IMG/VR virus record: IMGVR_UViG_3300018420_000018
Span: 1 to 60,935 of that record
Direction: 5' to 3' (one strand)
DNA from: a virus
DNA length: 60,935 bases
Shown one piece after another: positions 12,061 to 31,733 of the stretch; position 1 is the stretch's first letter; every line of letters starts with the position of its first letter. Both the position numbers and the translations under genes were made by a program. A model generated the notes under the pieces. That model ran no database searches and was not told where the DNA came from. It saw only the letters and a list, made by a program, of their open reading frames with translations.

Positions 12061-12064
12061 ATAT

Positions 12065-14794: not shown

Positions 14795-15485
14795 GAAAAA
14801 ATTCTTCCTCGTCTACTAATCTTACTTCGTCTCCTCGTAAAACTAGAGACCTTCTATCAATATATCTTGCAGATGATGTGGGTGCATCTGCACCATGTGG
14901 TATTCTACCATCAAATATAATCAACCTGTTTGGTTTAAATTCTATTTCTGCAATTTGGTGGTTTTCAATATGTTCTTGTCTACCGTCTAAACCTTGTTGC
15001 ATTTCATTATATAGTCTTAATTTACCACCCCAATTTTTATTCCAAAATTTATTAGTGTAATATAAGAATGATAAATTCCACTCATCTTCATCTTGACAAT
15101 CTGCGTGAGTTGTTCCTTGTAAACCTTGAGTTTGAGAATTAAGTCCCATATATTGAAATCTTACCCACTTAAATCCAAACTCAGTTTGCAATCTTCTGTT
15201 TAGATAATATGGAAATATAGTATGGAGTTTATCCATATCTTTTTCTAATTTCATACCATCTCTGAAATAAGTTGCACCCCAAAAACTATGGTGAGGTAAA
15301 CCTGTAGGACTTCCACTACTGACTTGATTAGTCTTAGACCATATATTTTCTCTTACAATGTAATCGTCAAAATGATGATGTAGTTCGGTTGCAAGATAAT
15401 TATCTAAGACATAGACATCTTTAAGAGGTAAGTCTTTTATTTTGAAGGGTTCATCGATATGAACAACTTTTACGTCATCAAACAT
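14766..15485 (-). CDS. 2OG-Fe(II) oxygenase (prolyl 4-hydroxylase-like)
   Basis: 239 aa. Clear jelly-roll dioxygenase signature: His127-x-Asp129 in GTTHADCQDED, a strand NLSFLYYTNKFWNKNWGGKL, distal His197 in DGRIPHGADAP and Arg211/212 for 2-oxoglutarate in DRRSLVLRG. It belongs to the 2OG-FeII_Oxy/P4Hc superfamily, many members of which hydroxylate proline or asparagine in proteins. The substrate cannot be read from the sequence. The adjacent Pro-rich repeat fibre proteins are an attractive candidate (inference). The start has an AAAGG site 4 bp after the preceding gene. Confidence 0.85.
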   Translation of the reverse strand: MFDDVKVVHIDEPFKIKDLPLKDVYVLDNYLATELHHHFDDYIVRENIWSKTNQVSSGSPTGLPHHSFWGATYFRDGMKLEKDMDKLHTIFPYYLNRRLQTEFGFKWVRFQYMGLNSQTQGLQGTTHADCQDEDEWNLSFLYYTNKFWNKNWGGKLRLYNEMQQGLDGRQEHIENHQIAEIEFKPNRLIIFDGRIPHGADAPTSSARYIDRRSLVLRGDEVRLVDEEEFFHANDRVSHI

Positions 15486-15488
15486 ATA

Positions 15489-16046
15489 CTACCTTTCATG
15501 GTCGGGTAGTAATGATGCCTGAGGTAATTGATTTAGATAATCTTGTATTGGTTTTAAATGGTCTTCTCTAGTTGCAAAAATTTCATTTACTAATTGGTCG
15601 TAGATTACATATTGTGAATCTGCAAACTCTAGTACTCTTCTTGCATTAGACCTATATGGGTGATTTGAACCTTCTCTACCTGCAAACGTGACTTCAGTTA
15701 AATCATCAAATCCATAGTTATCAAGAAAATTTGCAATATTACCTTTTACTTCGTCAACTAAGTCTTGTACATATTGATTGTTTAATGTGACTCCTGCAGG
15801 AGGTTCAGAATTTTCAATATAGTTTTCTATAATTTCTTTTTCAGGATTTGTTAATGGTCTTTTGACTTGGTCATCAAAACATTTATCATCATCCCATTTT
15901 TCAATTACGATTTCTATATCATCGTATACTAATACATCAAAATCAAAACCTAGTTCAGGTTGGTCTGTATTATCAAACTCGTATTGTAAACCATTAGGTT
16001 TTCTAATAATAAGTTTTTGGTCTTCCGTGTAAATTAGTGCGTTCAT
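15489..16046 (-). CDS. Hypothetical protein of the accessory island
   Basis: 185 aa from ATG 16046 (MNALIYTEDQKLIIRKP), chosen because GAGG lies upstream; the longer reading would need a TTG start. The N-terminal half is acidic (a beta-rich NALIYTEDQKLIIRKPNG strand pair, then EIVIEKWDDDKCFDD). The C-terminal half is helical with YRSNARRVLEFADSQYVIYD and may be a tail/assembly chaperone-like helix bundle. No family recognised. It lies between the glycosyltransferase and oxygenase genes and is presumably cotranscribed with them. Confidence 0.6.
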   Translation of the reverse strand: MNALIYTEDQKLIIRKPNGLQYEFDNTDQPELGFDFDVLVYDDIEIVIEKWDDDKCFDDQVKRPLTNPEKEIIENYIENSEPPAGVTLNNQYVQDLVDEVKGNIANFLDNYGFDDLTEVTFAGREGSNHPYRSNARRVLEFADSQYVIYDQLVNEIFATREDHLKPIQDYLNQLPQASLLPDHER

Positions 16047-16075
16047 ACTGTTATTATACCTCAATATTGATTAAA

Positions 16076-17653
16076 TTACAAGGGTAATTTATCTTTTACT
16101 CTCTTGTAGTATTCTAAATTATTTATGCGACTAGAATCCATCCCATCTATCCAAGGGCCTCCTCTAGTGTAGTGAACTGCAGAGAAATCCCATTTTACTT
16201 CAGGGTCATCATATCCTTCAACAAAAATATACTTTTCAGGTATTGGAGATATCTTATCAGTCCATTCAAACTGATGTAATTGAGCACCAGTCCAAGTGTT
16301 CACAACTTCAGGTGTAAGTTTTCTACAATCCTCATGACCATTGTTAAAGAACATCATAGAAGACCACAACTTACATGGGTAATCTATATTCACTTCACCA
16401 TCAAACTTAGTTTCATCGTGTTTCATTTGTGGATACTTAATACATGCAACTGCATCATCTGTATTTAAATAATAGAACATAGGAAGTAGAGATTTGTTAA
16501 AGATAAAATCATCATCTATAAACATACTAAATCCTTCGTAGTTCTCTAAATATGGAATTAAAAATCTACTGTATGTAAACCATGTTGATTGATTTGCATA
16601 TGGTCTTGTATATTCAGGAATTTTTGATACATCTAAAAATTTAATTTCAGGTACAAACTTATTGTAGTCTACAAATCTACCTCCTCCGATAGATTTTTGT
16701 ATACTATCTAAAATAGATTCTTTACATACTTGTTCTAAACCATTGTGTCTACTATCATATCCGATGTAGATGTTTAGTGGTTTACCTTTAGATAATTTTG
16801 TGACTTTCTCACTATGTTCCCAAACATACTTTCTAAAATCTACATTACTGAAATCGACTTGAAACTCTATGGTACCCATTGTCCATATTGCAGACAATCC
16901 TTTATACTTTGGTTTTCTTTTACCATTTAATACTTTATCTTTCCAGTATTCTAAACATTCCTTGACACCGATTGGTTCTGCAGGTATAATATCATGTGTA
17001 TCCCATAATAGTAATTCATGATTAGGGTCTTCCATTTCCTCAAAACAACCTGACCTTACAGAGCCTGGGTGAATCATTAATTGTATTCTATCACCCGAAC
17101 TTTGTGTAAGACCTTGTATAGGTGCCCATAAACCTTCTTCTTGAATACTCTGTATCAACCAATGTCCTTTTGCACTATGATAATACATAGAGTTCAATGC
17201 AATTGGAAAATCTTCTGCATCAAAATCACCCGACTGCAATTCTTCTCCTGCATAGTCTTTTATATCAACCTCTTTATCTGTTAAAGGTTCTGATACTGCA
17301 AATTTAGTAGAGGGAGCACCATGTTCGTTGATAGAACCTGATGTATAAATTTCGGGTAAGAATCTATGATATGAGTTTGCTTGGAATCTTAAACCTTGCC
17401 ATCCTATTAGTTCACCACTTCTTCTTAAAGGTTCTAAATCAGACCACTTACATAACTTAAGGGGAGGCATGTTTTCAAACATGTATTCTAGAACTTTTAT
17501 AAATTCTGAATCATAATCGATATTTTCTAAATTATCTAATTGACCTAAATGCCACTGGTCTAAGTCTCTTCTTTCCTTATGATTAAGGTCTTTGAATGAC
17601 TCGGGAAATGTTAAAAATTGTTTAGTTTGCTCTAGAGTTTTGAGTTTGTCCAT
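16076..17653 (-). CDS. ParB-like domain fused to a GT8-like glycosyltransferase
   Basis: 525 aa with two parts. Residues about 155-220 carry SIQEEGLWAPIQGL and IHPGSVRSGCFE followed by HELLLWD, a pattern like the ParB/Srx-type fold. Residues about 292-520 form a glycosyltransferase: KPLNIYIGYDSRHNGLEQV (nucleotide-binding first strand), WFTYSRFLIPYL, and the metal-binding FIDDDFIF (DDD 380-382), as in GT8/GT-A enzymes. It probably uses a nucleotide sugar in the host cytoplasm. The acceptor is unknown: candidates are virion fibre proteins, host surface glycans or DNA. Its location next to repeat fibre genes favours virion decoration. The start has GAGG. Confidence 0.7.
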   Translation of the reverse strand: MDKLKTLEQTKQFLTFPESFKDLNHKERRDLDQWHLGQLDNLENIDYDSEFIKVLEYMFENMPPLKLCKWSDLEPLRRSGELIGWQGLRFQANSYHRFLPEIYTSGSINEHGAPSTKFAVSEPLTDKEVDIKDYAGEELQSGDFDAEDFPIALNSMYYHSAKGHWLIQSIQEEGLWAPIQGLTQSSGDRIQLMIHPGSVRSGCFEEMEDPNHELLLWDTHDIIPAEPIGVKECLEYWKDKVLNGKRKPKYKGLSAIWTMGTIEFQVDFSNVDFRKYVWEHSEKVTKLSKGKPLNIYIGYDSRHNGLEQVCKESILDSIQKSIGGGRFVDYNKFVPEIKFLDVSKIPEYTRPYANQSTWFTYSRFLIPYLENYEGFSMFIDDDFIFNKSLLPMFYYLNTDDAVACIKYPQMKHDETKFDGEVNIDYPCKLWSSMMFFNNGHEDCRKLTPEVVNTWTGAQLHQFEWTDKISPIPEKYIFVEGYDDPEVKWDFSAVHYTRGGPWIDGMDSSRINNLEYYKRVKDKLPL

Positions 17654-17688: not shown

Positions 17689-18657
17689 TTAAGAAGATAT
17701 AGGTGTTCCTGGCCATGATTGTTGTAATGCACCATCCCATCTAATCACTGGTGTTCTACCTTGTCTAGCATACGTTGCAGGTTGTCTGTTCTGATATGTA
17801 AACGGTGTTTGACCTTGTCTTGCATATGTACCAGGCTGTCTGTTTTGATACGTAAACGGTGTTCTACCTTGTCTTTCATATGTACCAGGCTGTCTGTTCT
17901 GATATGTAAACGGTGTTTGACCTTGTCTTTCATATGTACTAGGTTGTCTGTTCTGATATGTAAACGGTGTTTGTGCATTCACTGGATTCTGATATGTTCC
18001 AGGCTGTCTATTCTGATAAGTGAATGGTGTTTGTGCATTCACTGGATTCTGATATGTTCCAGGCTGTCTATTCTGATATGTGAAAGGAGTTCTACCTTGT
18101 CTTGCATATGTACCAGGCTGTCTGTTTTGATACGTAAACGGTGTTCTACCAGTTCTTTGATATGTACCAGGCTGTCTGTTTTGATACGTAAACGGTGTTC
18201 TACCAGTTCTTTGATATGTACTAGGTTGTCTGTTCTGATACGTAAATGGAACACGATAAGATACTGGATTTCTATAAGTAAATGGTGACCTATTATTATA
18301 TGTAAACGGTATCTGATAGGATACTGGGTTTCTATAAGTGAATGGTGACCTATTCTGATATGTAAAAGGTAATTGGTATCCTACAGGGTTTCTATATGTA
18401 AAAGGAGACCTTGCGTTATATGTGAACGGTAATTGGTATCCTACAGGGTTTCTGTATGTAAATGGTGACCTATTATTATATGTAAAAGGTTGTCTCGCAT
18501 TCGCAATGTAAGGTACACGATATGTAAATGGTACCCTATAAGTGGAAGGTTGTCTTGCGTTGGCAATATATGGTACTCTATAGGTAAAGGGAACCCTATA
18601 CGTAGAAGGTTGTCTCGCATTTCCTATATTTGGTACTTGATAATTTCCTATTGCCAT
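17689..18657 (-). CDS. Pro/Tyr-rich tandem-repeat fibre-like protein (PFTYQNRQP repeats)
   Basis: 322 aa, almost wholly repeats. Nine consecutive copies of PFTYQNRQP alternate with linkers such as GTYQRTGR, GTYARQGR or GTYQNPVNAQ (18- or 20-residue units), after a divergent N-terminal section of PSTYRVPFTYRVPYIANAR and SPFTYRNPVGYQL. The repeat part is nearly free of acidic residues and rich in P, Y, Q, N, R and T. The last 22 residues (TPVIRWDGALQQSWPGTPI..) look like a small cap. No enzymatic motif or signal peptide is present. It lies in the fibre/adhesin locus, so a repetitive virion adhesin or fibre shaft is the best guess. A similar repeat style occurs in three more genes here. Confidence 0.7.
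   Translation of the reverse strand: MAIGNYQVPNIGNARQPSTYRVPFTYRVPYIANARQPSTYRVPFTYRVPYIANARQPFTYNNRSPFTYRNPVGYQLPFTYNARSPFTYRNPVGYQLPFTYQNRSPFTYRNPVSYQIPFTYNNRSPFTYRNPVSYRVPFTYQNRQPSTYQRTGRTPFTYQNRQPGTYQRTGRTPFTYQNRQPGTYARQGRTPFTYQNRQPGTYQNPVNAQTPFTYQNRQPGTYQNPVNAQTPFTYQNRQPSTYERQGQTPFTYQNRQPGTYERQGRTPFTYQNRQPGTYARQGQTPFTYQNRQPATYARQGRTPVIRWDGALQQSWPGTPISS
17755..18245. repeat. In-frame tandem repeats, 54 or 60 bp
   Basis: DNA repeats encode the PFTYQNRQP units of the gene at 17689-18657. Units differ mainly in the linker, and length changes keep the frame. Confidence 0.85.
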
Positions 18658-18668
18658 TTAAATTATTC

Positions 18669-18971
18669 CTAGGTTATTTCCTTTAAAATTCCTCTTATGT
18701 CTCTATATTTGTTTTCTATAGTTCTCTGACCTTCAGGCATTTCATCTATAGGATAATAATATGATTCTCTGATAATATCGTTTGCAATCAAAGCTTCATG
18801 AGTTTGTAGTGCTTCTGTTGCAGACTCCATATCGACATCTGAACCCACTGTAAAATTAGTTAAATTTATTTTTAAGTCTAATTCATAATCAACACCATTT
18901 ACAGTAATCTGATTTAAAGGATTACTTTGAAGGTATTGTATTCCGTTTTCTGTAATTATTTCTACTGACAT
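18669..18971 (-). CDS. Small hypothetical protein in the fibre locus
   Basis: 100 aa, with a GAGGA ribosome-binding site before ATG. The first half is beta-like (VEIITENGIQYLQSNPLNQITVNGVDYELDL); the second half is helical and acidic. No family is recognised. It sits between two repeat-fibre genes with gaps of 11 and 17 bp, so it is cotranscribed with them and may be a small structural or chaperone protein (inference). Confidence 0.55.
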   Translation of the reverse strand: MSVEIITENGIQYLQSNPLNQITVNGVDYELDLKINLTNFTVGSDVDMESATEALQTHEALIANDIIRESYYYPIDEMPEGQRTIENKYRDIRGILKEIT

Positions 18972-18986
18972 TTAATTCTTCCTCAT

Positions 18987-19476
18987 TATTAATAAAGTGC
19001 TAACGACATTGGTTGATACGAACCTGCAACATAACTTGGGAACGAAGAACTTGGTATAGTCCATGTATAATATTTGGTTCCTGCATATGGGTTTGTACTT
19101 GCAGTTCCTGATGAAAGTGGTAATGTCGTTGTTGTGTTTGGTAAACTCAATACAAAATAAGTTGCACTAGGGAAATCTTGAGCAAAATCATACTGACCAC
19201 TTAAACCAGTTGCCTTATACGTCATTTCTCCAATTGTTAGGGTAGATGTAGATGCACTGCCTGGACTTTGTCTAATAACCCACTCACCAGCACCATATAT
19301 TGATATAGGTGGTGCAGGACTTTGCGGCCATGTTCCTGCGAATCCTAATGGGCCATATCCATAAGGTGCGGCTGGGTATCCTGTTGAAAACCCATACCTT
19401 GCAGTACCAGTATAACTCGAAGGTTCTACATTAGAAGTCACACTATAAGGCCCCCATAGTATTGGGTCGGGATATG
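18987..19476. repeat. Duplicated C-terminal-domain cassette, copy 1
   Basis: About 490 bp nearly identical to 28434-28923, in direct orientation. Both encode the shared C-terminal domain of two repeat-fibre proteins. Differences are scattered and mostly synonymous. Confidence 0.85.
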
Positions 19477-20533
19477 GGTAAGTACCAGGCGACCTAAAAC
19501 TATACGTAAATGGTGATTGTGAGTTTGCAGGATATCTTGCATTCGCAGGATACCTTGCGTTATACGTAAATGGTGATTGTGCATTTGCAGGATACCTTGC
19601 ATTTGCAGGATACCTTGCGTTATACGTAAATGGATTCTGACCATTTGCAATGTAAGGTTGTTGTGCAGAAACAGGGTTTCTATACCCTCTTGGTGTTCTT
19701 GCATTCGCAATATAAGGTTGTTGTGCGTTTACTGGATTTCTATACCCTCTTGGTGTTCTAGCGTTTGCAATGTAAGGTTGTTGTGCAGAAACTGGATTTC
19801 TATATCCTGCAGGTTGTCTTGCGTTTGCAATGTAAGGTTGTTGTCCGTTTACTGGATTTCTATATCCTGCAGGTTGTCTTGCGTTTGCAATGTAAGGTGA
19901 TTGTGCATTCGCAATATATGGATACGGTTGCTGTGCATTTGCAATATATGGTGTTTGACTGTTAGCAATATATGGATACGGTTGTTGTGCATTCGCAATA
20001 TATGGGGTCTGACTGTTCGCAATGTATGGATATGGTTGCTGAGCATTAGCGATATATGGCGTTTGACTATTTACTGGATTCCTATATGTACTAGGTTGTC
20101 TTGCTTGTGCAATATAAGGAGTCTGACTATTTACTGGATTCCTATATGTACTTGGTTGTCTTGCATTCGCAATATATGGTGTTTGTGCATTAGCAATATA
20201 AGGGTATGGTTGCTGTGCATTAGCGATATAAGGAGTCTGACTATTCGCAATATAAGGGTACGGTTGTTGAGCGTTTGCGATATAAGGTGTCTGACTATTT
20301 GCGATGTAAGGATATGGTTGTTGAGCGTTTGCAATATATGGGGTCTGACTGTTTGCAATATATGGGTATGGTTGTTGAACAGATTGTTGACCCGATGCAT
20401 TATTCCACCCTGTTGGTGTTTTTACATAAATTTGGTCAACTGCTTTCCATGTTGTAGAACCAGTTTTTACCCACCCACCTTGAGTTGAACTCCAACCCGA
20501 AGGTGTTTTTACTTTTTGTGACCCTGTCGCCAT
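18989..20533 (-). CDS. Repeat fibre protein with shared C-terminal head domain (copy 1)
   Basis: 514 aa. N-terminal 50 residues are non-repetitive (KTPSGWSSTQGGWVKTGSTTW, then IYVKTPTGWNNASG) and resemble a virion-attachment domain. Residues about 51-345 are repeats of QPYPYIANSQTPYIANA (18 residues) and QQPYIANARTPRGYRNPVNA (20 residues), followed by a short ANARYPANAQSPFTY set. The C-terminal ~165 residues (from YPDPILWGPYSV to SYQPMSLALY) are almost identical to the C-terminus of the gene at 28435-29715, so this is a paralogous pair with different shafts and the same tip. Probably a fibre or adhesin; receptor not inferable. Confidence 0.7.
   Translation of the reverse strand: MATGSQKVKTPSGWSSTQGGWVKTGSTTWKAVDQIYVKTPTGWNNASGQQSVQQPYPYIANSQTPYIANAQQPYPYIANSQTPYIANAQQPYPYIANSQTPYIANAQQPYPYIANAQTPYIANARQPSTYRNPVNSQTPYIAQARQPSTYRNPVNSQTPYIANAQQPYPYIANSQTPYIANAQQPYPYIANSQTPYIANAQQPYPYIANAQSPYIANARQPAGYRNPVNGQQPYIANARQPAGYRNPVSAQQPYIANARTPRGYRNPVNAQQPYIANARTPRGYRNPVSAQQPYIANGQNPFTYNARYPANARYPANAQSPFTYNARYPANARYPANSQSPFTYSFRSPGTYPYPDPILWGPYSVTSNVEPSSYTGTARYGFSTGYPAAPYGYGPLGFAGTWPQSPAPPISIYGAGEWVIRQSPGSASTSTLTIGEMTYKATGLSGQYDFAQDFPSATYFVLSLPNTTTTLPLSSGTASTNPYAGTKYYTWTIPSSSFPSYVAGSYQPMSLALY
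19495..20385. repeat. In-frame tandem repeats, 54- and 60-bp units
   Basis: Encodes the PYIANA / RNPVNAQ units of the gene at 18989-20533. Two unit types are arranged in blocks: 60-bp RNPVNAQQPYIANAR units, and 54-bp QQPYPYIANSQTPYIANA units. Confidence 0.85.
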
Positions 20534-20569
20534 ATTCTAAATTACCTTAAAAATTTAAGTTATACTCTA

Positions 20570-22741
20570 TTAAGAGTAAAGTACCCATAAATCACCAACT
20601 GCACCATCACCTGCACCAGGCGATGAAGTTGATTGATATATGTTTCTCACATATCCACCTGAGTTCGATGCATTACTTGTTGTAATAGTTCCAAGTGTTG
20701 CGTTTGAACCACTCTCATATTTAGTGTTTAATGCAGTCTGTAATCCATCCACATTTGCAATTGTATGATTATGTGAATCATCTGCAACTGCTGCTGTGAT
20801 TGTAATATTTGATGTACCATTAAATGATGCAGAACCTGAAAGGTCTCCACCCAAACTAATTGTTCTTGCAGTCGTCAACTGAGCAGCACTTGAAGCAGTA
20901 CTTGCATTACCAGTTAATGAACCTTCAAAAGACGATGCTTTTACATTATATGCACCGAATGTCCATTCGTCTTCTGATTCGTCCCATGTTAATGAAACGT
21001 TAGATGATGTTCCTCTTTCTACTTCTATACCTGCATCCTCTGAAGGAGTACCAGTCACATCGTTATTAAGAACAACAATGTTATCAGAAACGTTAAGTGT
21101 TGCAGTGTTTACAGTTGTTGTAGTACCGTTTACAGTCAAGTCACCTGAAAGTGTAAGGTCTCCAAAAGATACATTATCTGATGTACCAACTGACTGACCA
21201 ATACTTACCTGACCTGAACTAATAGAAACACCAGTACCTGCACTAAAATGGGCACGTGTCTCTGATGCACTAGGGCCTGTATATGTGATTACACCAGTAC
21301 CTGAATTATACGCAAGTGAACCATCTCCACCTGCATCCGTGACTGAAACTTTTCCTCTTACTTGTGCATCTGTAATACCTGAGTATGTGATTACACCAGT
21401 TGTAGAGTTATATGAAAGTGTACCGTCTCCTGCAGAATCAGTGACTGAGATAGCACCTCTTGCATCTGAATCTGTATATGTTGTGACTGAGAATGCACCT
21501 GTTGAACTGTTGTATGATAAATCACCACCTGCAGAGAATAAACCTCTTATATCTGAATCAGATAAACCTGCAAGTGTAAGTGTTCCAGCTGCATCGTCAT
21601 ATGTTGATGTAATGTTTGTTCCACCGATAACTAAACCGTTTACGATATCTTCGATTTCTTCTTCTGTTTTACCTGAAGAGTTAATTGTAAGTGTTCCGTT
21701 TGCATCGTCATATGAAGTTGTGATATTTGTACCTGCAGTAATTAATGCATTTACTCTATCGTCAACTCTTTCGTTTGTAAAATATTGATTAGTTGAACCC
21801 TCTCCAACGTCATCTGTATCTAAAACTACTGCACCACCTAGTGATACAGAATTAGAGTTTACAGAGATTGAACTGTTAGAAAGTTTTGCATTTGAAATAG
21901 AACCCGCTAACATAGCGTCTGTAATACCTAATGCTTTTACTTGTAGTGTGTCTGAACTTGTTTCGATTGAACTATCGTCAACATTTACTGCAAGTGATAC
22001 TGCACCTGAAGTTCCACCACCTGATAAACCATCTCCTGCAGTGACACTTTCGATATCACCTGCATCATTAGTGAATGAGATTACACCAGTTGAGGAGTTA
22101 TAGGACAAGTCTCCACTTACTGATATTGCACTTCTTGCTCTTGCAGTTGTATGAAATAAATTTGTTGAACCTTCAGTGATATCATCTGAGTCACCTGAAA
22201 GTTCTGATAATGCATCTTTACTTGCAACTTGTGAATCTACATATGCTTTTACAGATTGTTGTGTTGGAATCTGTGTAGCAGAGTTCGAAGACATATCGTC
22301 TTCGTCTAATACTGCAGTTCCACTTACACCAGTATTTAAAACTGCACTTGTAAGTGTTTTGTTTGTTAATGTTTGTGAACCTGTTAATGTTGCAACAACT
22401 GAAGTATCTACTTCAATATCATCTGCATTTACAGTGATACCTGTACCAGCACCAATATTAAGTGTTGCATCTCCTGAAGTTGCAGTACCTGTTAAACCAT
22501 CACCTGCATTAACACCAGTGATATCACCGACATTACCTGTAATTGTTAATTGGTTGTTTGCATCGTCATATGATAATGAGATACCTGAACCTGCTTGTAA
22601 GAGGTTCGCAACTCTATCGTCTACACTTTCGTCAAGTGCAGAAGCAGATATTGAACCCTGAAATACACCTGCAGAAGTAATGACCTCTGTTCCACCAATG
22701 GAAAGTCCATTCTTAATATTAAAATTCTTTTCTCCTGCCAT
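20570..22741 (-). CDS. Modular tail fibre protein
   Basis: 723 aa. The N-terminal module GEKNFNIKNGLSIGGTEVI is shared with the small gene at 22741-22974. It is followed by repeated beta modules typical of marine phage fibres: TSTTVSD-type [41 protein letters not shown], repeated GDLSYNSSTGVISFT, DGSLAYNSGTGVITYTG and [24 protein letters not shown] units. The end is GAGDGAVGDLWVLYS. The same kind of modules occur in the genes at 25153-26763 and 29717-31528. A TAATG junction couples it to the preceding gene. Specific receptor unknown. Confidence 0.75.
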   Translation of the reverse strand: MAGEKNFNIKNGLSIGGTEVITSAGVFQGSISASALDESVDDRVANLLQAGSGISLSYDDANNQLTITGNVGDITGVNAGDGLTGTATSGDATLNIGAGTGITVNADDIEVDTSVVATLTGSQTLTNKTLTSAVLNTGVSGTAVLDEDDMSSNSATQIPTQQSVKAYVDSQVASKDALSELSGDSDDITEGSTNLFHTTARARSAISVSGDLSYNSSTGVISFTNDAGDIESVTAGDGLSGGGTSGAVSLAVNVDDSSIETSSDTLQVKALGITDAMLAGSISNAKLSNSSISVNSNSVSLGGAVVLDTDDVGEGSTNQYFTNERVDDRVNALITAGTNITTSYDDANGTLTINSSGKTEEEIEDIVNGLVIGGTNITSTYDDAAGTLTLAGLSDSDIRGLFSAGGDLSYNSSTGAFSVTTYTDSDARGAISVTDSAGDGTLSYNSTTGVITYSGITDAQVRGKVSVTDAGGDGSLAYNSGTGVITYTGPSASETRAHFSAGTGVSISSGQVSIGQSVGTSDNVSFGDLTLSGDLTVNGTTTTVNTATLNVSDNIVVLNNDVTGTPSEDAGIEVERGTSSNVSLTWDESEDEWTFGAYNVKASSFEGSLTGNASTASSAAQLTTARTISLGGDLSGSASFNGTSNITITAAVADDSHNHTIANVDGLQTALNTKYESGSNATLGTITTSNASNSGGYVRNIYQSTSSPGAGDGAVGDLWVLYS

Positions 22742-22974
22742 TATAATGTTCCTCCATCAATCTGAACATTATTCAGAGTTTTAGATGATGATGCATCTGC
22801 AAGATGCGTGTCGACTTTTGAAGTCGCAAAATATTGATTAGTTGAACCTTCTGAAATATCATCAGTATCAATCTGCGATAATGCAGAAGCGACAATTTTA
22901 CCTGATGAGTTAATTACTTCGGTGGTTCCTACACTGATTCCATACTCTACTACAAATTTGTTTTGTGTTGCCAT
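22741..22974 (-). CDS. Small fibre-module protein ending IDGGTL
   Basis: 77 aa from ATG 22974 (MATQNKFVVEYGISVGTTEVI), preceded by AGGA. A longer reading would begin at GTG 23013, but the internal start fits the fibre-module N-terminus better. It consists of the N-terminal module shared with the downstream fibre, a DDISEGSTNQYFATSKVD unit and a C-terminal IDGGT(L/F) tag also found at the ends of the genes at 25153 and 26912. Probably a minimal fibre or adaptor. The stop overlaps the next start (TAATG). Confidence 0.6.
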   Translation of the reverse strand: MATQNKFVVEYGISVGTTEVINSSGKIVASALSQIDTDDISEGSTNQYFATSKVDTHLADASSSKTLNNVQIDGGTL

Positions 22975-23055
22975 TTTTTCGTGTGTCCTATACTGAAAAA
23001 GTAATTTATACACTACTATTTAGAAGATAGTGTTCTTCAAAATAGTGTTTTTACT

Positions 23056-23802
23056 CTAAACTTTTAATAAATTTCTACTTATTTTAAATACAGTTGAAGA
23101 TGCAGATGCAGGAGTGACTCTCAATCTTACATTTCCTGAGTTTGTGTCAACTGAGAGACTAAAGAGTGACGAATTTGTGTACACATCACCAAATTGTGAG
23201 AAGTATGCATTCGTTGAATTATGTATTAACATCACCTCACATGCATGATAATTACTTCCTTGTGATGCTTGAATCTGATATTTACCACTTCTATAACTTA
23301 AAAGTGGGAATGTATCTAAATCTACTTCAGTCGTTGCAGTTGTTGTTAATGTTTGGTCTGCATCCATTCTTAAATTACTTAAAGATAATGGGCCGACTGC
23401 AGTCAACTGACCTGTTGCTTCTATATCACCAGCTTTAAAGTCTGCATATGCATAACCTGTTCCACTGATATTTACCGTATTGTCTGGCTCGACTTCTAAA
23501 CCGTCAAATAGTTTCCATGTGGAATCTGATGCATCTCTGAATAATCCTGTATATTCACTTGCACCACCATCTGATAAACCGTCATCATAATTTCCATAAA
23601 AACCTATATCTAATAAGTCACTTGAAGTGTTTCCACTTGCAAGTTCCATCATAGAATCAGTGACGGAAACAGTTGTTGAATCAATTGTTAAACTAGTTCC
23701 TTGGACAATTAAGTCCCCAGTCACCGTTAGATTACCATCTACGGTACTCGAAGATAAGGATTGAAACCCTAAATCTGTAAAAAACTTAGTTTTAGTTGCC
23801 AT
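23056..23802 (-). CDS. Fibre-type structural protein with shared C-terminal beta domain
   Basis: 248 aa. Begins with a fibre-type module (GNLTVTGDLIVQGTSLTIDSTTVSVTDS) and ends in an ~80-residue domain with the pattern KYQIQASQGS...AEVMLIHN-like...GDVYTN...RLRVTPASASSTVFKI. The same domain ends the next two genes (23868 and 24289). It is transcribed from its own late promoter 5 nt before ATG (leaderless type), right after a strong terminator, so it begins a new late unit. Probably a fibre or decoration protein. Confidence 0.65.
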   Translation of the reverse strand: MATKTKFFTDLGFQSLSSSTVDGNLTVTGDLIVQGTSLTIDSTTVSVTDSMMELASGNTSSDLLDIGFYGNYDDGLSDGGASEYTGLFRDASDSTWKLFDGLEVEPDNTVNISGTGYAYADFKAGDIEATGQLTAVGPLSLSNLRMDADQTLTTTATTEVDLDTFPLLSYRSGKYQIQASQGSNYHACEVMLIHNSTNAYFSQFGDVYTNSSLFSLSVDTNSGNVRLRVTPASASSTVFKISRNLLKV

Positions 23803-23807
23803 ATAAC

Positions 23808-23815
23808 TATTTATA
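23808..23815 (-). promoter_or_regulatory. Late promoter 5 nt from ATG (leaderless type)
   Basis: TATAAATA, GTTAT, ATG on the minus strand, directly downstream of the terminator at 23825-23848. Confidence 0.75.
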
Positions 23816-23824
23816 CAAATAAAA

Positions 23825-23848
23825 AAGGGGAGACCGAAGTCTCCCCTT
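23825..23848 (-). terminator. Rho-independent terminator with UUCG loop
   Basis: 10-bp stem AAGGGGAGAC (23825-23834) with GTCTCCCCTT (23839-23848); the minus-strand loop is TTCG, followed by TTTTTTATTT. It ends the transcript of 23868-24278 just before a new late promoter. Confidence 0.9.
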
Positions 23849-23867
23849 AGTGATTACTTAAAATCGT

Positions 23868-24278
23868 TTAAGCGTCTACTGTTGTTCTATCGAACTTGAT
23901 TACTGTAGATGATGATGAAGCAGGGGTTGCTAATAATCTTAGATTACTCCCACTTATGTCTGCATCAAATGTTGCAAGACTTTTTGATTTTAAAGTACCG
24001 TACTGAGTTAACGTGACTGCAGAACCGTCATGAACAACAACAATTTCTGTAGAGTGGAAATCACTTCCCTCTGACATTGCAACAACATATCTTGCAGCTC
24101 TAAAATCTGCTTTCGCAAATGTATCGAGTGCAAATTCTGTAGTTGAAGTTTTTGTTGCATCACCTGATGTTCTGTCCTTCGATTTGACTTTCTTTGAAGT
24201 CGTAATTTCATCGTTGTCTACATCGAATTGTATTCCACGAATCAACTCAGCGATTTTAAATGCATTAGTTTTCGCCAT
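23868..24278 (-). CDS. Small structural protein with shared C-terminal beta domain
   Basis: 136 aa. Short N-terminal linker (MAKTNAFKIAELIRGIQFDV), then the domain seen in both neighbours (RYVVAMSEGSDFHSTEIVVVH...YGTLKSKSLATFD...RLLATPASSSSTVIKF). This is a minimal version of that domain with almost no shaft. Likely a baseplate or fibre decoration protein in an array of three paralogues. AAGGAG ribosome-binding site; terminator directly downstream. Confidence 0.65.
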   Translation of the reverse strand: MAKTNAFKIAELIRGIQFDVDNDEITTSKKVKSKDRTSGDATKTSTTEFALDTFAKADFRAARYVVAMSEGSDFHSTEIVVVHDGSAVTLTQYGTLKSKSLATFDADISGSNLRLLATPASSSSTVIKFDRTTVDA

Positions 24279-24288
24279 GTTTTACTCC

Positions 24289-25113
24289 TTAAGAAAGTCT
24301 AATTTGGAAGGTTTTAAATGTTGTATTTGTATTCGCAGGTGTAGTTAACAATCTCATGTTTCCACTATCTATATCACTTGAAAGTGAGAATAGAGATGAA
24401 TCTGAGAATGCATCACCGTATTGAACGAAATACGCATTTGAACCGTCATTGATTAATAGTACTTCGGCCGCATGTGTTCCAGCAGTTGCATGAGATGCCA
24501 TTATGACATACTTAATTGCTTTATTACCTGTTGGATTTGAACTTAAGACTTGGTCGGATGTAGTTGCAGTTAATTCACTTGTTGTGAAAAAACCTTGAAC
24601 TAAATTCGATATCGAAGTCTGAGCGACCACCTCTAAAACGTCTCCCGACACTGCATTTGCTTGTAATGTGATTGAACTGGTGGAAGTTCTTGCATAGTCG
24701 TCTCCGACCACAAGTTTAACACCGTTCAAGTAAACCTGTTCTAAACCAAGTGTGTATGATAAGGATGCTCCGTTATCGTCACTACCTGAGAATAGAGTTT
24801 GGTTTCCAGTCACACTGTAAGTAAATGTTGTGACACCAGTTGATGGAGCATCGGTGAAACTTATTGTTCCACTACCATCAGTTGATAACAACTGACCGCT
24901 TGTTCCATCACTAGTTGGGAAAGTAATTGCATCATTAATTGTAAGAGAAGAAGGGTTAGACCCTACTTCTACTACGGCAGCAGACCCATCATTCTTCTCA
25001 GTATAAAACCTACCGTGGTAAGTATTGACCGCTAATTCTCCTAGTGCAAGGTCACCCGTGCCTGGAGCAGCGTTCTGAGTAGAACTTCTTTTAAATTGGA
25101 TTACTGTTGCCAT
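24289..25113 (-). CDS. Fibre protein, MATVIQ-type N-terminus and shared C-terminal beta domain
   Basis: 274 aa. The N-terminus MATVIQFKRSSTQNAAPGTG.. is the same module as at the start of the gene at 25153-26763, a common marine phage fibre start. The middle has a DNGASLSYTLGLEQVYLNGVKL unit like other phage fibre linkers. The C-terminal ~80 residues carry the beta domain shared with the two genes downstream. It combines N- and C-terminal modules from different relatives, which fits module shuffling. Start with AGGAG. Confidence 0.7.
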   Translation of the reverse strand: MATVIQFKRSSTQNAAPGTGDLALGELAVNTYHGRFYTEKNDGSAAVVEVGSNPSSLTINDAITFPTSDGTSGQLLSTDGSGTISFTDAPSTGVTTFTYSVTGNQTLFSGSDDNGASLSYTLGLEQVYLNGVKLVVGDDYARTSTSSITLQANAVSGDVLEVVAQTSISNLVQGFFTTSELTATTSDQVLSSNPTGNKAIKYVIMASHATAGTHAAEVLLINDGSNAYFVQYGDAFSDSSLFSLSSDIDSGNMRLLTTPANTNTTFKTFQIRLS

Positions 25114-25152
25114 TTTACTCTCCTATTGAATTGGTTGATTGAACTATTTTAA

Positions 25153-26763
25153 TTAAAATGTTCCACCATCAATAGCTGTGACTGATACAGCACCTGATGT
25201 GACTGTAAAGTTTGAAGAGTCAAATGAAGCAATACCTTTGTTTGATGTTGTTGCATCTTCACCAGCGATTGTCACTGTACCTGAAGAGTATGAAGCGTCC
25301 ATACCTTCACCAGCTGCGACAATAACAGCACCTAAGTTAGCATCTGTACCAACTTCAACTGCGACTGTAATAGCACCATCAGCGTTTGTGATGTCTATTG
25401 CTTCACCAGCAGTTAGAGTTGCAAGTTCCATGTCTCCATTAGAACCATTACCGACTAATAACTCACCAGCAGCAGGAGCAGCACCGTCTACAGAAGTGAT
25501 TGAACCACTTAATGCAAGACCAGTTGCTTCTAATCCACCGAATACAGCACTCATTGCAGTACCAGTAAATGTTGATGAACTATCTGTTGCTGAACTTAAT
25601 GCAACGAACTTACCTGATGAATCATCTAAACCAAAGAAACCAACTTTAGCAGAACCATCGTTATACTTAAATTTAATACCTCTGTCTAAGTTGTCATCTG
25701 AAGCATCATCACCGATTTCAAATACTGGGTCTGCAACTGAAGTAGTTGTAGAGTTTACAGTAGTTGTAGTACCGTTTACAGTTAAGTTTCCTGAAACTGT
25801 TAAGTTTCCTGAAGCAGAAATGTTTGTTGATGTAATATCGTCTGATGTAAGTGTACCGTCAACGTCAACGTTGTTAAATGTCACATTGTCGGATGTTCCA
25901 ACTGACTGACCAATTGCGAAAGTCACAGCTTGGTTAGCTGCAGAAGTTGTCACACCTGTTCCACCAGTGAAAGTGATTGATTGTGAGTCTAAGTCGACTG
26001 CACCTGTTCCACTATCACCTGCGATATCTAAATCTTGAGCAGTGACTTGTGAATCAACATATGCTTTTACAGATTGTTGTGAAGGAACTTTAACTGCAGA
26101 ATCAGAAGTCATATCGTCTTCGTCAACTAAGAAGTCAATTTTTCCTATTGTCACATTACTATCTGCAATCATAGCTGTTTCAACAGCACTGTTTGCGATT
26201 GTGACTGCACCACTTGATGCCATAGTCACGTCACCACTTAATGATACGTTATCAAATGAATCACTTCCATCATGAACAAGTAATTGTCCTGCTGTTGGAG
26301 ATGAAATATCTGAGTCTGTTGCACCTGCAAGTGTTGATGTTGTTGATAAGAAAGATAGGTTTCCTGAACCATCTGTTCCTAATACTTGGTTTGCACTACC
26401 ATCACCTGATGGTAATACGAAGGTCACGTCTGAAGCAAGTGTATCGGGAGCTTTAAGAGCAACGGAGTTTGAACCGTTGTCTGAATCTTCCATTAACTTT
26501 AATGAACCACCTGAAGTTGAACCATTACCGACTTTAAAGTCAGCAGGTGTTGCAGAAGAACCATCTACGATATCCGTGTAATATTTACCACCGACTTCGT
26601 GTATAGCAGCTGCACCTAAAGAGTCAACTGATTCTATATAAAGTTTTGCACTAGCACCATCATTCGACCTATCTTGTACATACGCTAATTCGCCTTCGCT
26701 CAAGTCTGAGACTGTTGGCGCACTCGCTCCTGTACTTCTTTTGATTTGAATTACTGTTGCCAT
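25153..26763 (-). CDS. Long modular tail fibre ending IDGGTF
   Basis: 536 aa. Starts [20 protein letters not shown], has an [19 protein letters not shown] adapter, then repeated fibre modules (for example [20 protein letters not shown] and [20 protein letters not shown]) and [17 protein letters not shown]. It ends [10 protein letters not shown], the C-terminal tag shared with two other small fibre proteins in the locus. AGGAAAT ribosome-binding site. Its late promoter is 138 bp upstream, leaving a leader with three hairpins. Confidence 0.7.
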
Positions 26764-26900
26764 TTTTATTTCCTATAAAAATTAATTAATTAATGTTTAT
26801 GACCCTACACTATTCGGGTCGTTGATACATAATAAAAAAATTCTATCCTCTCACTATGAGGGTCGATACCTTCACTGGTCGGTATCCTTGATATCCTAAT
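26764..26900 (-). promoter_or_regulatory. Structured leader upstream of the 25153-26763 fibre
   Basis: Between the late box and the ATG lie three hairpins on the minus strand: GATACC/GGTATC (26865-26886), CCTC/GAGG (26847-26861) and GACCC/GGGTC (26801-26820). Their loops contain AGTG, ATAGTGA and GAATAGTGTA. A T-run (about 26833-26840) follows the second hairpin. This could be a leader structure, RNA-processing sites or a weak attenuator. Confidence 0.45.
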
Positions 26901-26908
26901 TATTTATA
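26901..26908 (-). promoter_or_regulatory. T4-type late promoter upstream of the fibre gene
   Basis: TATAAATA on the minus strand, 138 bp before the ATG at 26763 and just downstream of the stop of the 26912 gene. Confidence 0.6.
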
Positions 26909-26911
26909 AAA

Positions 26912-27160
26912 CTAGAATGTTCCACCATCTATAGAAGTGGTGGTTGTCCATTTGTCTGTTTCTGCATCATAAGATAATAATCCATCGTCTGTTTCAGATG
27001 CATTTACGTCTGCAAGTTCGTTGATAGATTTTGCAGATAAGTTTACACTTGATGAAGTGTTTCCAATTGCAACCTGTTTTGCACGAATATTAGTTGCACC
27101 TGCAATTCTAGCACCTACTGAACCTGTTGCTCTGTTTAATGTTCCTTTAATGTTTGACAT
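26912..27160 (-). CDS. Small structural protein ending IDGGTF
   Basis: 82 aa. N-terminal part MSNIKGTLNRATGSVGARIAGATNIRAKQ, then a beta module KSINELADVNASETDDGLLSYDAETDKW, and the C-terminal SIDGGTF tag. Widely found in T4-like marine phages next to the Ig-like protein upstream; likely a short fibre or baseplate adaptor. Start with GAGGT, 6 bp after its neighbour. Confidence 0.65.
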   Translation of the reverse strand: MSNIKGTLNRATGSVGARIAGATNIRAKQVAIGNTSSSVNLSAKSINELADVNASETDDGLLSYDAETDKWTTTTSIDGGTF

Positions 27161-27166
27161 AATTCT

Positions 27167-27499
27167 TTACCTCGTCACACCAGGCGTCACTATAGCTTGT
27201 CCTTCTATTACTCTACTAGTGCTTCCACCTGAACTAGTTATATTCAAATCATATACATATCTTCCACCTGATAGACCTGAAGTTTGTGTATCAGTAAGTG
27301 ATAATGTCACTTGACCATTTACCTCTGAAATAGAAGTTGCAAATGTTTCAGATACAGTTGAAGAACTATAAGTTTTTCTAATTTGTGCTGATGCAGTATA
27401 ACCTGATAGGTTTAAAACGTCACCAGCAGAATCAGTCACATCTACTGTAATACTGTAATCTGTTCCTTGGTCTATGTATAAATTTGCAATAATCGCCAT
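27167..27499 (-). CDS. Ig-like (BppU N-terminal type) virion protein
   Basis: 110 aa, all-beta, with the recurring pattern IDQGTDYSITVDVTDSAGD...YTASAQIRK...GRYVYDLNIT...RVIEGQAIVTPGVTR. This is the small structural protein common in marine T4-like phages and like the N-terminal domain of BppU-type baseplate proteins. Probably a baseplate or fibre-attachment domain. Its late box is 5 nt before ATG (GTATT spacer), so its mRNA may be leaderless. Confidence 0.7.
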   Translation of the reverse strand: MAIIANLYIDQGTDYSITVDVTDSAGDVLNLSGYTASAQIRKTYSSSTVSETFATSISEVNGQVTLSLTDTQTSGLSGGRYVYDLNITSSGGSTSRVIEGQAIVTPGVTR

Positions 27500-27504
27500 A
27501 ATAC

Positions 27505-27512
27505 TATTTATA
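27505..27512 (-). promoter_or_regulatory. Late promoter 5 nt from ATG (leaderless type)
   Basis: TATAAATA, GTATT, ATG on the minus strand. No Shine-Dalgarno can fit in between. Confidence 0.75.
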
Positions 27513-27517
27513 CGGGA

Positions 27518-28426
27518 TTAACCCTTATTAAATTGTGCAGTTGGTACTGATTGGTGAATTTTCTCTAACGTACCACTATCATTTACATAAATTTCTTCCA
27601 CTTTCTCTACTGTTCCATTATTATTTCTAAACACACCTTTTACCTTTGCAATCGGGCCAACTGTTCTAGTTGTTGTGTATGGTTGTTGATACACATAGTT
27701 TTGTTGGAAACTATAAGGTGATTGATAAGGATTCTGATATATACTTGGTTGTCTCGCATTCGCAATATAAGGATTTTGATACGTAAACGGATGTTGATAT
27801 AAACTTGGTGTCCTATTCTGATACGTTTGAGGAGTCCTTAAAGGTGTTGCAAAAGAATATGATGCTTGTCTCTGATAGGTAAAAGGAGTTCGACCTTGTC
27901 TTGAATACGTACTAGGTTGTTGTGCAATAAACGGATACGGTTGTTGTAAATTTGCAATATATGGATATGGTTGTTGTGCATTCGCAATGTATGGATACGG
28001 TGCTTGTGCAATGTATGGATACGGTTGTTGTGCATCAGCAATATACGGATACGGTTGTTGTGCCTGTGCAATAGGTGTAGTTGCAGGTCTCCTTGCAATA
28101 TAAGGATACGGTACTTGTCCTTGATTTATAAACGGATATGGTTGTCTCGCTTGTGCAATATACGGATAACTTGCTTGTGCAGATGCAATGGGTCTTGTTG
28201 CAGGGTTTTGTTTATTTGCTTGATACGAAACTTGTGCAATCGCAGGTTGTCTTGCAGGTTGTTGGAAAGTTGCAATATATGGTTGTTGCGTTGTTGCAGG
28301 GTATTGAACATTAATAGGCTGTCTTCTTATTTCTTGAGTATTGATTGGTTGTTGTGAAGGTTGCCTAAACCCATACGGCACTTGGTAAGTGTATATGTAA
28401 GGTTGTTGTGTTTGTCCTATTGCCAT
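27518..28426 (-). CDS. Pro/Tyr-rich repeat fibre-like protein
   Basis: 302 aa. Irregular repeats of QQPYPYIANAQ, QPYIATFQQ, RQPINVQ, SPYSFQQ, PFTYQNPYIANARQP and related blocks run from the N-terminus to about residue 255. The C-terminal ~45 residues are non-repetitive (GVFRNNNGTVEKVEEIYVNDSG), with an EIYV motif like the non-repeat modules of its neighbours. The end may therefore be an attachment module rather than a tip. Late genes on both sides; presumed virion fibre. Confidence 0.65.
   Translation of the reverse strand: MAIGQTQQPYIYTYQVPYGFRQPSQQPINTQEIRRQPINVQYPATTQQPYIATFQQPARQPAIAQVSYQANKQNPATRPIASAQASYPYIAQARQPYPFINQGQVPYPYIARRPATTPIAQAQQPYPYIADAQQPYPYIAQAPYPYIANAQQPYPYIANLQQPYPFIAQQPSTYSRQGRTPFTYQRQASYSFATPLRTPQTYQNRTPSLYQHPFTYQNPYIANARQPSIYQNPYQSPYSFQQNYVYQQPYTTTRTVGPIAKVKGVFRNNNGTVEKVEEIYVNDSGTLEKIHQSVPTAQFNKG
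27720..28320. repeat. Irregular in-frame repeats (IANAQ/PYIA type)
   Basis: Imperfect repeats encoding PYIANAQQPYP and related units in the gene at 27518-28426. Less regular than the 54/60-bp arrays. Confidence 0.7.
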
Positions 28427-28433
28427 ATCTTAT

Positions 28434-28923
28434 CCTAATAAAGTGTTAACGACATTGGTTGATACGAACCTGCAACATAACTTGGGAACGAAGAACTTGG
28501 TATAGTCCATGTATAATATTTGGTTCCTGCATATGGGTTTGTACTTGCAGTACCACTCGCTAAAGGTAAAGTTGTTGTTGTGTTGTTAGGTAAACTCAAT
28601 ACAAAATAAGTTGCACTAGGGAAATCTTGAGCAAAATCATACTGACCACTTAAACCAGTTGCCTTATACGTAAGTTCTCCAATTGTTAAAGTCGAGGTAG
28701 CGGAGGAGCCTGGACTTTGTCTAATAACCCACTCACCAGCACCATATATTGATATAGGTGGTGCAGGAGATTGTGGCCATGTTCCTGCGAATCCTAATGG
28801 GCCATATCCATAAGGTGCGCCTGGGTATCCTGTACTAAATCCGTATCTTGCAGTACCAGTATAACTTGAAGGTTCTACATTAGAAGTCACACTATAAGGC
28901 CCCCATAGTATTGGGTCGGGATA
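28434..28923. repeat. Duplicated C-terminal-domain cassette, copy 2
   Basis: Direct repeat of 18987-19476, about 9.4 kb away in the same orientation; a possible homologous-recombination site. Confidence 0.85.
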
Positions 28924-29715
28924 CGTATATGGTGTAGGTTGTCTTCCAACTATAGATGCAGGCTGTTGTGCAATCACTGGGTGTTGATAACTTGTTTGTG
29001 CAATTACAGGGTGTCTATAGGTTGTTTGTGCAATCGATGGGTGTCTATAACTTACACTTACCTGATGAGTATATTCTGCAGGATGTCTATATGATGCTTG
29101 ATAATCAGTACTTACCTGATGAGTGTATATTGTAGGGTGTTGGTAAGACTGTTGAAAACTATAAGGTTCACGTCCTTGTCTTGCATATGTAAAAGGTTGT
29201 TGACCTGTATCGTTAAAGTTGTAAGGTTGTGTTCCTTGTGTTGCATATGGTTGTTGAAAACTTTGTTGAAAACTATAAGGTGAACGTCCTTGGTGTGCAT
29301 ATGTAAAGGGTGTTCTACCTTGTGCAATGTAAGGAGTTTGACCTTGTCTTGCGTATGTGAAAGGTGTTCTTCCAGTTGCATTATAGATTACTGGACTTCT
29401 TCCAGTCACCTGAATTGTAGTTTGTGCATTTGCAATGTATGGGTATGCTTGTTGTGCAGATGCAATATAAGGATAGTTTGCAGTCGCTTGAACTATAGAT
29501 GGTATTTGTCTATTTGCAATATAAGGTGTTTGTGCAGAACTAGGTTGTCTTGCATTTGCAGGTTGTCTCGCTTGATAAGTAAAAGGAGTTTGTGCGTTTG
29601 CAGGTTGCCTTGCAATATATTGTGCAATTACAGGTGAACGACCTTGTGCAAGTCCCTGTCCTTGGTAAGGTTGTTGGAACGAAGTTCCTATATTTACATA
29701 AATTTCATCAGACAT
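28435..29715 (-). CDS. Repeat fibre protein with shared C-terminal head domain (copy 2)
   Basis: 426 aa. Begins MSDEIYVNIGTSFQQPYQGQ, followed by degenerate P/Y/Q repeats (RQPANAQTPFTYQARQP, TPFTYARQGQTPYIAQGR, SYRHPSIAQTTYRHPVIAQ). Residues about 258-426 are nearly identical to the C-terminus of the gene at 18989-20533. The shaft and the N-terminus are entirely different from that paralogue. Probably a fibre/adhesin carrying the same distal domain. Confidence 0.7.
   Translation of the reverse strand: MSDEIYVNIGTSFQQPYQGQGLAQGRSPVIAQYIARQPANAQTPFTYQARQPANARQPSSAQTPYIANRQIPSIVQATANYPYIASAQQAYPYIANAQTTIQVTGRSPVIYNATGRTPFTYARQGQTPYIAQGRTPFTYAHQGRSPYSFQQSFQQPYATQGTQPYNFNDTGQQPFTYARQGREPYSFQQSYQHPTIYTHQVSTDYQASYRHPAEYTHQVSVSYRHPSIAQTTYRHPVIAQTSYQHPVIAQQPASIVGRQPTPYTYPDPILWGPYSVTSNVEPSSYTGTARYGFSTGYPGAPYGYGPLGFAGTWPQSPAPPISIYGAGEWVIRQSPGSSATSTLTIGELTYKATGLSGQYDFAQDFPSATYFVLSLPNNTTTTLPLASGTASTNPYAGTKYYTWTIPSSSFPSYVAGSYQPMSLTLY
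28960..29625. repeat. Degenerate in-frame repeats
   Basis: Encode the RQPANAQTPFTY and YRHPxIAQTx blocks of the gene at 28435-29715. Confidence 0.65.
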
Positions 29716-29716
29716 A

Positions 29717-31528: not shown

Positions 31529-31733
31529 TTATCTTTTCCACTAATTGATTAAGAATATTTTTGATATCATTCATATCGTTCTTAATATTATTTATTTCCT
31601 CTACCTGTTTTTTATAGTTTTCTTTTCTAAGTTTATATAATGACCATGCATTTGTGTCTGTTGATACTATTGCAGAGGACTCTGAATCTCTTACTAAAGA
31701 TGTATGTCCTTCTACTTTAATATACTCAGTCAT
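31521..31733 (-). CDS. Small coiled-coil protein of the fibre locus
   Basis: 70 aa from ATG 31733 (MTEYIKVEGHTSLVRDSESS), inside a TAATG junction with the 2218-aa gene; an upstream in-frame extension is not needed. Pattern YIKVEGHxxLVRDxxSxAIxSTDxxA plus a C-terminal coiled coil (NIKNDMNDIKNILNQL) is common in T4-like marine phages between baseplate and fibre genes. Function unknown; possibly fibre attachment or chaperone. Confidence 0.7.
   Translation of the reverse strand: MTEYIKVEGHTSLVRDSESSAIVSTDTNAWSLYKLRKENYKKQVEEINNIKNDMNDIKNILNQLVEKING

Follow-up and report, generated by a model that had tools for sequence, protein, structure and literature searches.

The window analysed here, the whole of the 60,935-base virus record IMGVR_UViG_3300018420_000018, encodes four repeat proteins which, judging from comparison of their sequences, quite probably serve as the partner chains of two heteromeric virion fibres, each pair joined as an antiparallel beta zipper with a base and a tip. 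Named in the order of transcription, the proteins are D and C, followed by B and A, and they constitute two gene pairs, B:A and D:C, a pairing missed in an earlier, sequence-only reading of this DNA. Antiparallel pairing of B with A is almost certain in our judgement, and it is very likely that all four proteins belong to a virion fibre. The evidence is comparative throughout and comes from a single virus clade, sampled as IMG/VR relatives of the window.

The virus is a T4-like marine myovirus. Its neck genes lie at 11203-12880 and its fibre genes at 20570-31528, a DUF4815 protein of 2218 residues is encoded at 31733, and the neck proteins share 35-50% identity with those of Kyanoviridae such as Melnitz, Mosig and C48C1. 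The four open reading frames (ORFs) reported in the sequence-only reading are all present, all on the minus strand (Table 1). D and C are adjacent, B and A are separated only by an ORF of 100 residues, and the order D-C ... B-A is kept in marine relatives. The description of the locus as an unusual fibre locus stands: none of the four proteins matches a structural fibre family in Pfam or PHROGs, in which only weak, meaningless matches were obtained, and the proposed search of marine phage metagenomes located the repeat units in at least 212 IMG/VR stretches. As had been noticed, the proteins are rich in Pro, Tyr, Asn and Gln (together ~46% of A, 42% of B, 48% of C and 36% of D) and poor in acidic residues (Asp plus Glu: 3 in A, 7 in B, 7 in C and 12 in D). 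Modules of 6, 8 and 10 residues are joined into 18- and 20-residue units, in agreement with the predicted range of 18-20, and Tandem Repeats Finder reports units of 18, 24, 30, 54 and 60 nucleotides. The view that the proteins are dominated by repeats holds insofar as all four carry repeat arrays, but B and D do not consist of repeats only, and non-repeat domains are present in B, C and D.

The arrays are governed by a rule of parity. The spacing between prolines is even in 38/38 cases in A, 49/51 in B, 36/38 in C and 28/29 in D, compared with ~46% in shuffled sequences (p < 1/2000 for each protein), and across 152 distinct proteins of the IMG/VR relatives 5809 of 6052 Pro gaps are even, shuffling again giving ~46%. 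In the same 152 proteins, Tyr is found at an odd offset from Pro 4739 times and at an even offset 36 times; Tyr, Phe and Ala are restricted to the parity opposite to that of Pro. Such an alternation of two residues marks extended beta structure, as opposed to polyproline II (PPII) or collagen; PPII makes a turn every three residues, and the strictness of the alternation contradicts the polyproline-like structure that had been suggested for the repeats. Along an antiparallel beta ribbon, the NH groups of successive residues face the partner chain and the outside in turn. Proline, which has no NH, would be accommodated solely at the outward sites; these recur every two residues and lie opposite one another, which would account both for the even spacing and for the facing of Pro by Pro described below. 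The Pro autocorrelation shows, in addition, a period near 9, to which the irregular arrays of C and D are no exception.

Within each pair, the two arrays are closely matched in length. With array limits set by composition, the lengths of the B and A arrays are related by a slope of 1.01 and a median difference of 5 residues (median absolute deviation, MAD, 3; permuted minimum 49.5; n = 70, spanning 178-543 residues), and those of D and C by a slope of 1.04 and a median difference of 3 residues (MAD 5; permuted minimum 12; n = 32). The lengths in the window are specific to the pair, 307/302 for B:A and 254/251 for D:C. Close relatives mostly alter both arrays together (by +/-18, 16, 58/60, 78/80, 50/46 and 77/72 residues), and among 23 greedily chosen close phage pairs that differ in length, the two changes agree within 4 residues in 13.

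When A is reversed on B, the two arrays fall into one register. In this ANTIPARALLEL register, Pro-Pro coincidences in cognate pairs reach 6.3 times the expectation at a single shift; a parallel register was tried and rejected, the cognate signal being absent. Forty of the 42 prolines of A in the window then stand opposite a proline of B. Over 61 pairs, the best-offset Pro match has a median of 0.90 for cognate B:A pairs in the antiparallel orientation, as against 0.65 for the parallel orientation, 0.57 for non-cognate pairs and 0.42 after module shuffling. The register is constant (offset +2) in 64 of 69 pairs, such that the Arg of the RWD motif of A faces the residue located two positions after NNASGQ of B. 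With the register fixed and the sequences clustered, all clusters (38/38) score above the non-cognate mean, and the own A of a cluster ranks first of 38 in 37 of them, in a ranking that excludes six loci with truncated or length-discordant arrays. Natural fusions of B and A in one ORF (loci L245/L304, L305, L306 and L307) have a lower fraction of matched prolines, 0.58-0.65, and their best internal antiparallel register is the position set by the +2 rule, even in a fusion 71 residues shorter. These fusions bear on the possibility that A acts as a chaperone of assembly, or protects B, by zipping onto it during folding, without remaining in the finished fibre. Phages commonly encode dedicated fibre chaperones, B (like D) has an N-terminal domain and a tip, and A is encoded by a separate downstream gene; yet A possesses its own conserved C-terminal segment, which faces the conserved base of B, and the single-ORF fusions better fit a permanent structure, which makes a purely chaperoning A unlikely.

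Residues that face each other across the pair follow definite preferences. Opposite residues are P-P, I-R, Q-T and N-Q or N-N on one face, and Y-A, Y-G, F-Q, F-E, V-N and H-R on the other. The preferences are symmetric (I-R/R-I, Q-T/T-Q, F-Q/Q-F, H-R/R-H), pairs of F with F, R with R, T with T and I with I are nearly absent at the fixed register, and modules swap roles between the chains, PYIANARQ:PFTYNARY being seen both ways. At a compensatory site within otherwise similar modules, considered in both chain roles, Asn or Ala always stands opposite Ala (144/144, 29/29, 64/64 and 68/68), His at the same site is opposite Arg or Lys in 74/106 and 84/94 cases, and Tyr is opposite Arg or Lys in 15/16 and 16/17. 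Trained on B:A pairs from which the window's group was left out, a pair matrix assigns 221.6 to the A:B pair of the window and 56.4 to the next-best pairing in it, with low scores for self-pairing (A-A 33 and B-B 56, versus 222 for A-B). Matching lengths and module order could, in principle, result from concerted duplication or conversion of neighbouring genes without any physical pairing, in line with the ease with which tandem repeats recombine and with the homogenisation of the B and D tips within a genome. However, the modules at matched places are different (PYIANAQQ opposite PFTYQNRQ), the match is antiparallel although the genes are co-directional, and copying gives no compensation at single residues of the H-R or N-A kind; we consider this explanation extremely improbable. 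Antisense coding was also rejected as the source of the complementarity: Pro faces Pro, whereas the antisense of CCN encodes Gly, Arg or Trp.

For the second pair, D and C have a fixed register of +5, counted from the N-terminal segment of D to GPxAK of C, in most phages, and the matrix trained on B:A recovers it in most D:C pairs. At this register, 14 of 22 clusters have their own C in first place. The base-proximal complementarity of D and C in the window extends over 109 residues, with a score of 51.6 compared with at most 27.3 when modules are shuffled.

In the architecture that we propose, each pair would form a continuous antiparallel beta ribbon, with P, I, Q, T, R and N on one face, Tyr and Phe beside small or polar partners on the other, and prolines along the outer edges that would stop further growth of the sheet. 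At the registers described, the conserved N-termini of B and D come to lie beside or near the conserved C-termini of A and C, respectively, with the C-terminal domains of B and D at the far end; the conserved ends would constitute the base on the virion. A ribbon of 305 residues would measure ~100 nm if extended, or ~16 nm if coiled at ~18 residues per turn, at which the Pro period near 9 hints. It is fairly likely, in our view, that the two proteins recognise each other through a symmetric antiparallel code, read module by module along hundreds of residues with a logic like that of nucleic acids. Together they would form a viral fibre of two chains that changes length in evolution as both genes gain matching insertions, and its shaft may be hydroxylated at proline and glycosylated by the products of an adjacent gene cassette. 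Long protein fibres are normally built of identical chains; here, two different chains appear complementary over their full length, under rules simple enough for the partner to be predicted from sequence (37/38 clusters). If correct, this would be a natural peptide pairing code, on which the design of addressable protein fibres could draw. It would also represent a new architecture by which phages recognise their hosts, and would offer a candidate substrate to the 2-oxoglutarate (2OG) oxygenases, which are common yet unexplained in marine T4-like phages.

Several observations count against this proposal. The system occurs in a single clade of T4-like phages only, and the residue-pair preferences partly mirror the small set of modules. 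In the window's clade, D and C are length-matched, with prolines in register only in the base-proximal half, and the own C does not rank first there. Five very close phage pairs with 100% identical downstream DNA are discordant in one array only; at the loci concerned (L064, L080, L085, L181 and L023), one array differs by 20-88 residues from that of a contig with identical downstream DNA and, because this identity holds in all five cases, the discordance is probably due to repeat collapse in short-read assemblies. Finally, low-confidence AlphaFold2 (AF2) modelling of a natural fusion as a single sequence (predicted local distance difference test, pLDDT, 41) yielded no hairpin and placed solenoid-like strands in the A half; the Foldseek matches of this model were not used. 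The model is relevant to the beta-solenoid mentioned in the sequence-only reading, in which each protein would fold alone or as a homotrimer into coils of 18-20 residues, with B and A lying merely side by side. Such a fold agrees with the 18- and 20-residue superunits, with the Pro period near 9, C and D included, and with the 18-residue period of the strands in part of the AF2 model (pLDDT 70-80), and to this extent, in half of a fused homologue, the solenoid claim finds an echo. A single-chain solenoid nevertheless leaves unexplained the antiparallel complementarity of B and A, with its fixed register, partner specificity (37/38) and compensating residues, and is at odds with the low self-pairing scores, while a coiling two-chain ribbon would satisfy both the solenoid and the pairing data; we regard the solenoid of separate chains as quite unlikely.

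Receptor binding is the probable role of the tips, the domains at the C-terminal ends of B and D, and their fast divergence combined with homogenisation within the genome suits it. The B and D tips of the same genome are 87-95% identical in 7 of the 11 genomes that have both, and B tips of different genomes are mostly 31-77% identical, a pattern of concerted evolution that is homogeneous within a genome yet divergent between genomes. The AF2 model of the tip domain is beta-rich but of low confidence (pLDDT 50), and its Foldseek matches were not used. Other lineages carry a Hint/intein-like domain at the end of B or D, or have a B without a tip domain. The Hint/intein-like ends, which show the C-terminal HN motif and terminate in ..VLVHNG, occur at B or D C-termini in loci L034, L038, L050, L078 and L268, with Hint profiles above the curated cut-off in B of L038 and D of L078 (PF01079 and PF05203) and in B of L078 (PF14623); no Pfam Hint profile was detected in the proteins of the window. 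The Hint/intein-like domain may release or splice the repeat chain.

A tblastn search of named phages with B, in which BLAST masks low complexity, gave no match, nor did the prokaryotic genomes searched, and such repeats were not found in the regions read of the named T4-like relatives C48C1, Melnitz and Mosig. No open-access paper with the repeat strings was found, and the open-access literature yielded nothing relevant on hydroxyproline in phage fibres or on paired two-chain fibres. Taken over Pfam, PHROGs, named phages and open-access papers, these searches suggest that a fibre of this kind has not been described. Staphylococcal and streptococcal fibronectin-binding repeats assemble on the F1 modules of fibronectin as a tandem beta-zipper, the repeat chain supplying one antiparallel strand after another to successive partner modules, and an in-register antiparallel pairing of a repeat chain along its partner is what the phage proteins display at the sequence level. 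On one side of the tandem beta-zipper, however, stand folded globular modules in a row, which belong to a host protein, and on the other its disordered bacterial ligand, whereas both members of a phage pair are repeat chains of a similar kind, encoded by neighbouring genes, matched in length across hundreds of residues and with interchangeable module roles; Pfam detects no folded F1-type modules, the partner being the other Pro/Tyr repeat chain. The term tandem beta-zipper is used in PMC7480013. Trimeric fibres such as T4 gp34-37 and T5 pb1 (PMC12750041) share with the phage pairs a locus by baseplate and neck genes, a repetitive shaft, a variable C-terminal tip and a beta-rich character, but they are homotrimers of beta motifs, unlike the two non-identical, complementary antiparallel chains of fixed Pro parity proposed here. 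Collagen and length-matched heteromeric repeat fibres likewise have proline-rich chains of equal length in a shared register, along with prolyl hydroxylases and glycosyltransferases. In contrast to collagen, Gly-X-Y triplets are absent from the phage repeats (glycine 3-7%), the parity is 2 instead of period 3, and the chains would be antiparallel, not parallel.

Directly after A, the gene order is glycosyltransferase, conserved gene, OG2, conserved gene, OG1, where OG1 and OG2 are 2OG-Fe(II) oxygenases. OG2 has the family profile and the HxD...H ligands of the 2OG-Fe(II) oxygenase/prolyl 4-hydroxylase (P4H) group; 10/10 aligned members match PF13640, and its best PDB profile match, a weak one, is prolyl 4-hydroxylase alpha (E 0.0016). 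OG1, OG2 and the glycosyltransferase are present in 25/25 repeat-bearing loci, sampled by the neck gene, with at least 7.5 kb upstream, and four more distant neck-gene loci are without repeats, OG2 or glycosyltransferase. No unrelated virus lineage with repeats but without the oxygenases was found, OG2 being present in every record where the neck gene was found. In Mosig, 2OG oxygenases occupy the same place, and the region read showed no repeats. The link between oxygenases and repeats is supported, not proven, because it represents one clade-level evolutionary event. It is plausible that the enzymes directly after A make a proline modification, and they might hydroxylate and glycosylate the shaft, a less certain part of the proposal; for hydroxylation of the shaft prolines by the cassette oxygenases, we would put the chance slightly below even. 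The account in PMC9301287, which cites Eriksson et al. 1999, indicates that the prolyl 4-hydroxylase of Chlorella virus PBCV-1 acts on proline-rich repeats of viral proteins, and there, too, a virus encodes P4H together with its own proline-rich repeat proteins. PBCV-1 differs in being a eukaryotic giant virus with simple repeats that have no known pairing partner, and the substrate of the P4H-like phage enzyme is putative. The enzymes could also be seen as serving disordered, modified adhesive or extensin-like proteins, in keeping with a composition rich in Pro and Tyr and nearly devoid of acidic residues and with the always conserved adjacent P4H-like oxygenase and glycosyltransferase. Neither the parity rule, nor the length match, nor the register would be required of such proteins; this alternative is very improbable, and the adhesive reading of the repeats is an analogy.

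Table 1. Repeat proteins, their parts and the downstream cassette in the window.
Feature	Position	Strand	Basis or remark
D	28435-29715	-	426 aa
D N-terminal base segment MSDEIYVNIGTS	29680..29715	-	conserved; +5 register to C
D repeat array	28906..29679	-	length-matched to C and antiparallel-complementary to it over 109 residues
D C-terminal tip domain, shared with B	28435..28905	-	tip identity comparison
C	27518-28426	-	302 aa
C repeat array, putative partner of D	27653..28426	-	length match, register, pair matrix
C C-terminal base domain KVKGVFRNNNGTVEKVEEIYVNDSGTLEKIHQS..., 44 residues	27518..27652	-	conserved; weak PHROG_13729 match
B	18989-20533	-	514 aa
B N-terminal base domain, residues 1-49, KVKTPSGW..IYVKTPTGWNNASGQ	20387..20533	-	near-invariant in relatives; opposite conserved A C-terminus at fixed register
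B repeat array, ~residues 50-355	19469..20386	-	even Pro spacing, antiparallel match to A; proposed zipper strand
B C-terminal tip domain, about 155-158 aa	18989..19468	-	varies between phages; near-identical to same-genome D tip
Small ORF between B and A, 100 aa	18669..18971	-	found only in the window's clade
A	17689-18657	-	322 aa
A repeat array, residues 1-305	17743..18657	-	parity, length match, register with B; proposed partner strand
A C-terminal base segment RWDGALQQSWPGTPISS	17689..17742	-	conserved in relatives; RWD Arg opposite B
Glycosyltransferase, GT8-like C-terminal half	16076..17653	-	weak Pfam GT8; phage glycosyltransferase homologues; always after A in relatives
Conserved cassette gene	15489..16064	-	conserved in relatives
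OG2, 2OG-Fe(II) oxygenase PF13640, prolyl-hydroxylase-like	14766..15485	-	Pfam 2e-9; HxD...H conserved
Conserved cassette gene, PHROG_7084	13904..14794	-	conserved in relatives
OG1, 2OG-Fe(II) oxygenase PF13759	13210..13914	-	Pfam 1.6e-18, PHROG_81; likely start MSVRLLF at 13914

Some minor points of annotation emerged from the comparison. The TTG start given to OG1 by the ORF caller (13210-14043) makes it overlap the next gene, and homologues indicate the ATG listed in Table 1. The PHROG_274 label of OG2, DNA endonuclease V, looks like a carried-over misannotation, and the OG2 homologue in the L093 record (G002:C1:20084-20788) contains one in-frame TGA, either a sequencing error or a broken gene. 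Directly after C, a small gene at 27167-27499 matches PHROG_3304 (L-shaped tail fibre protein assembly).

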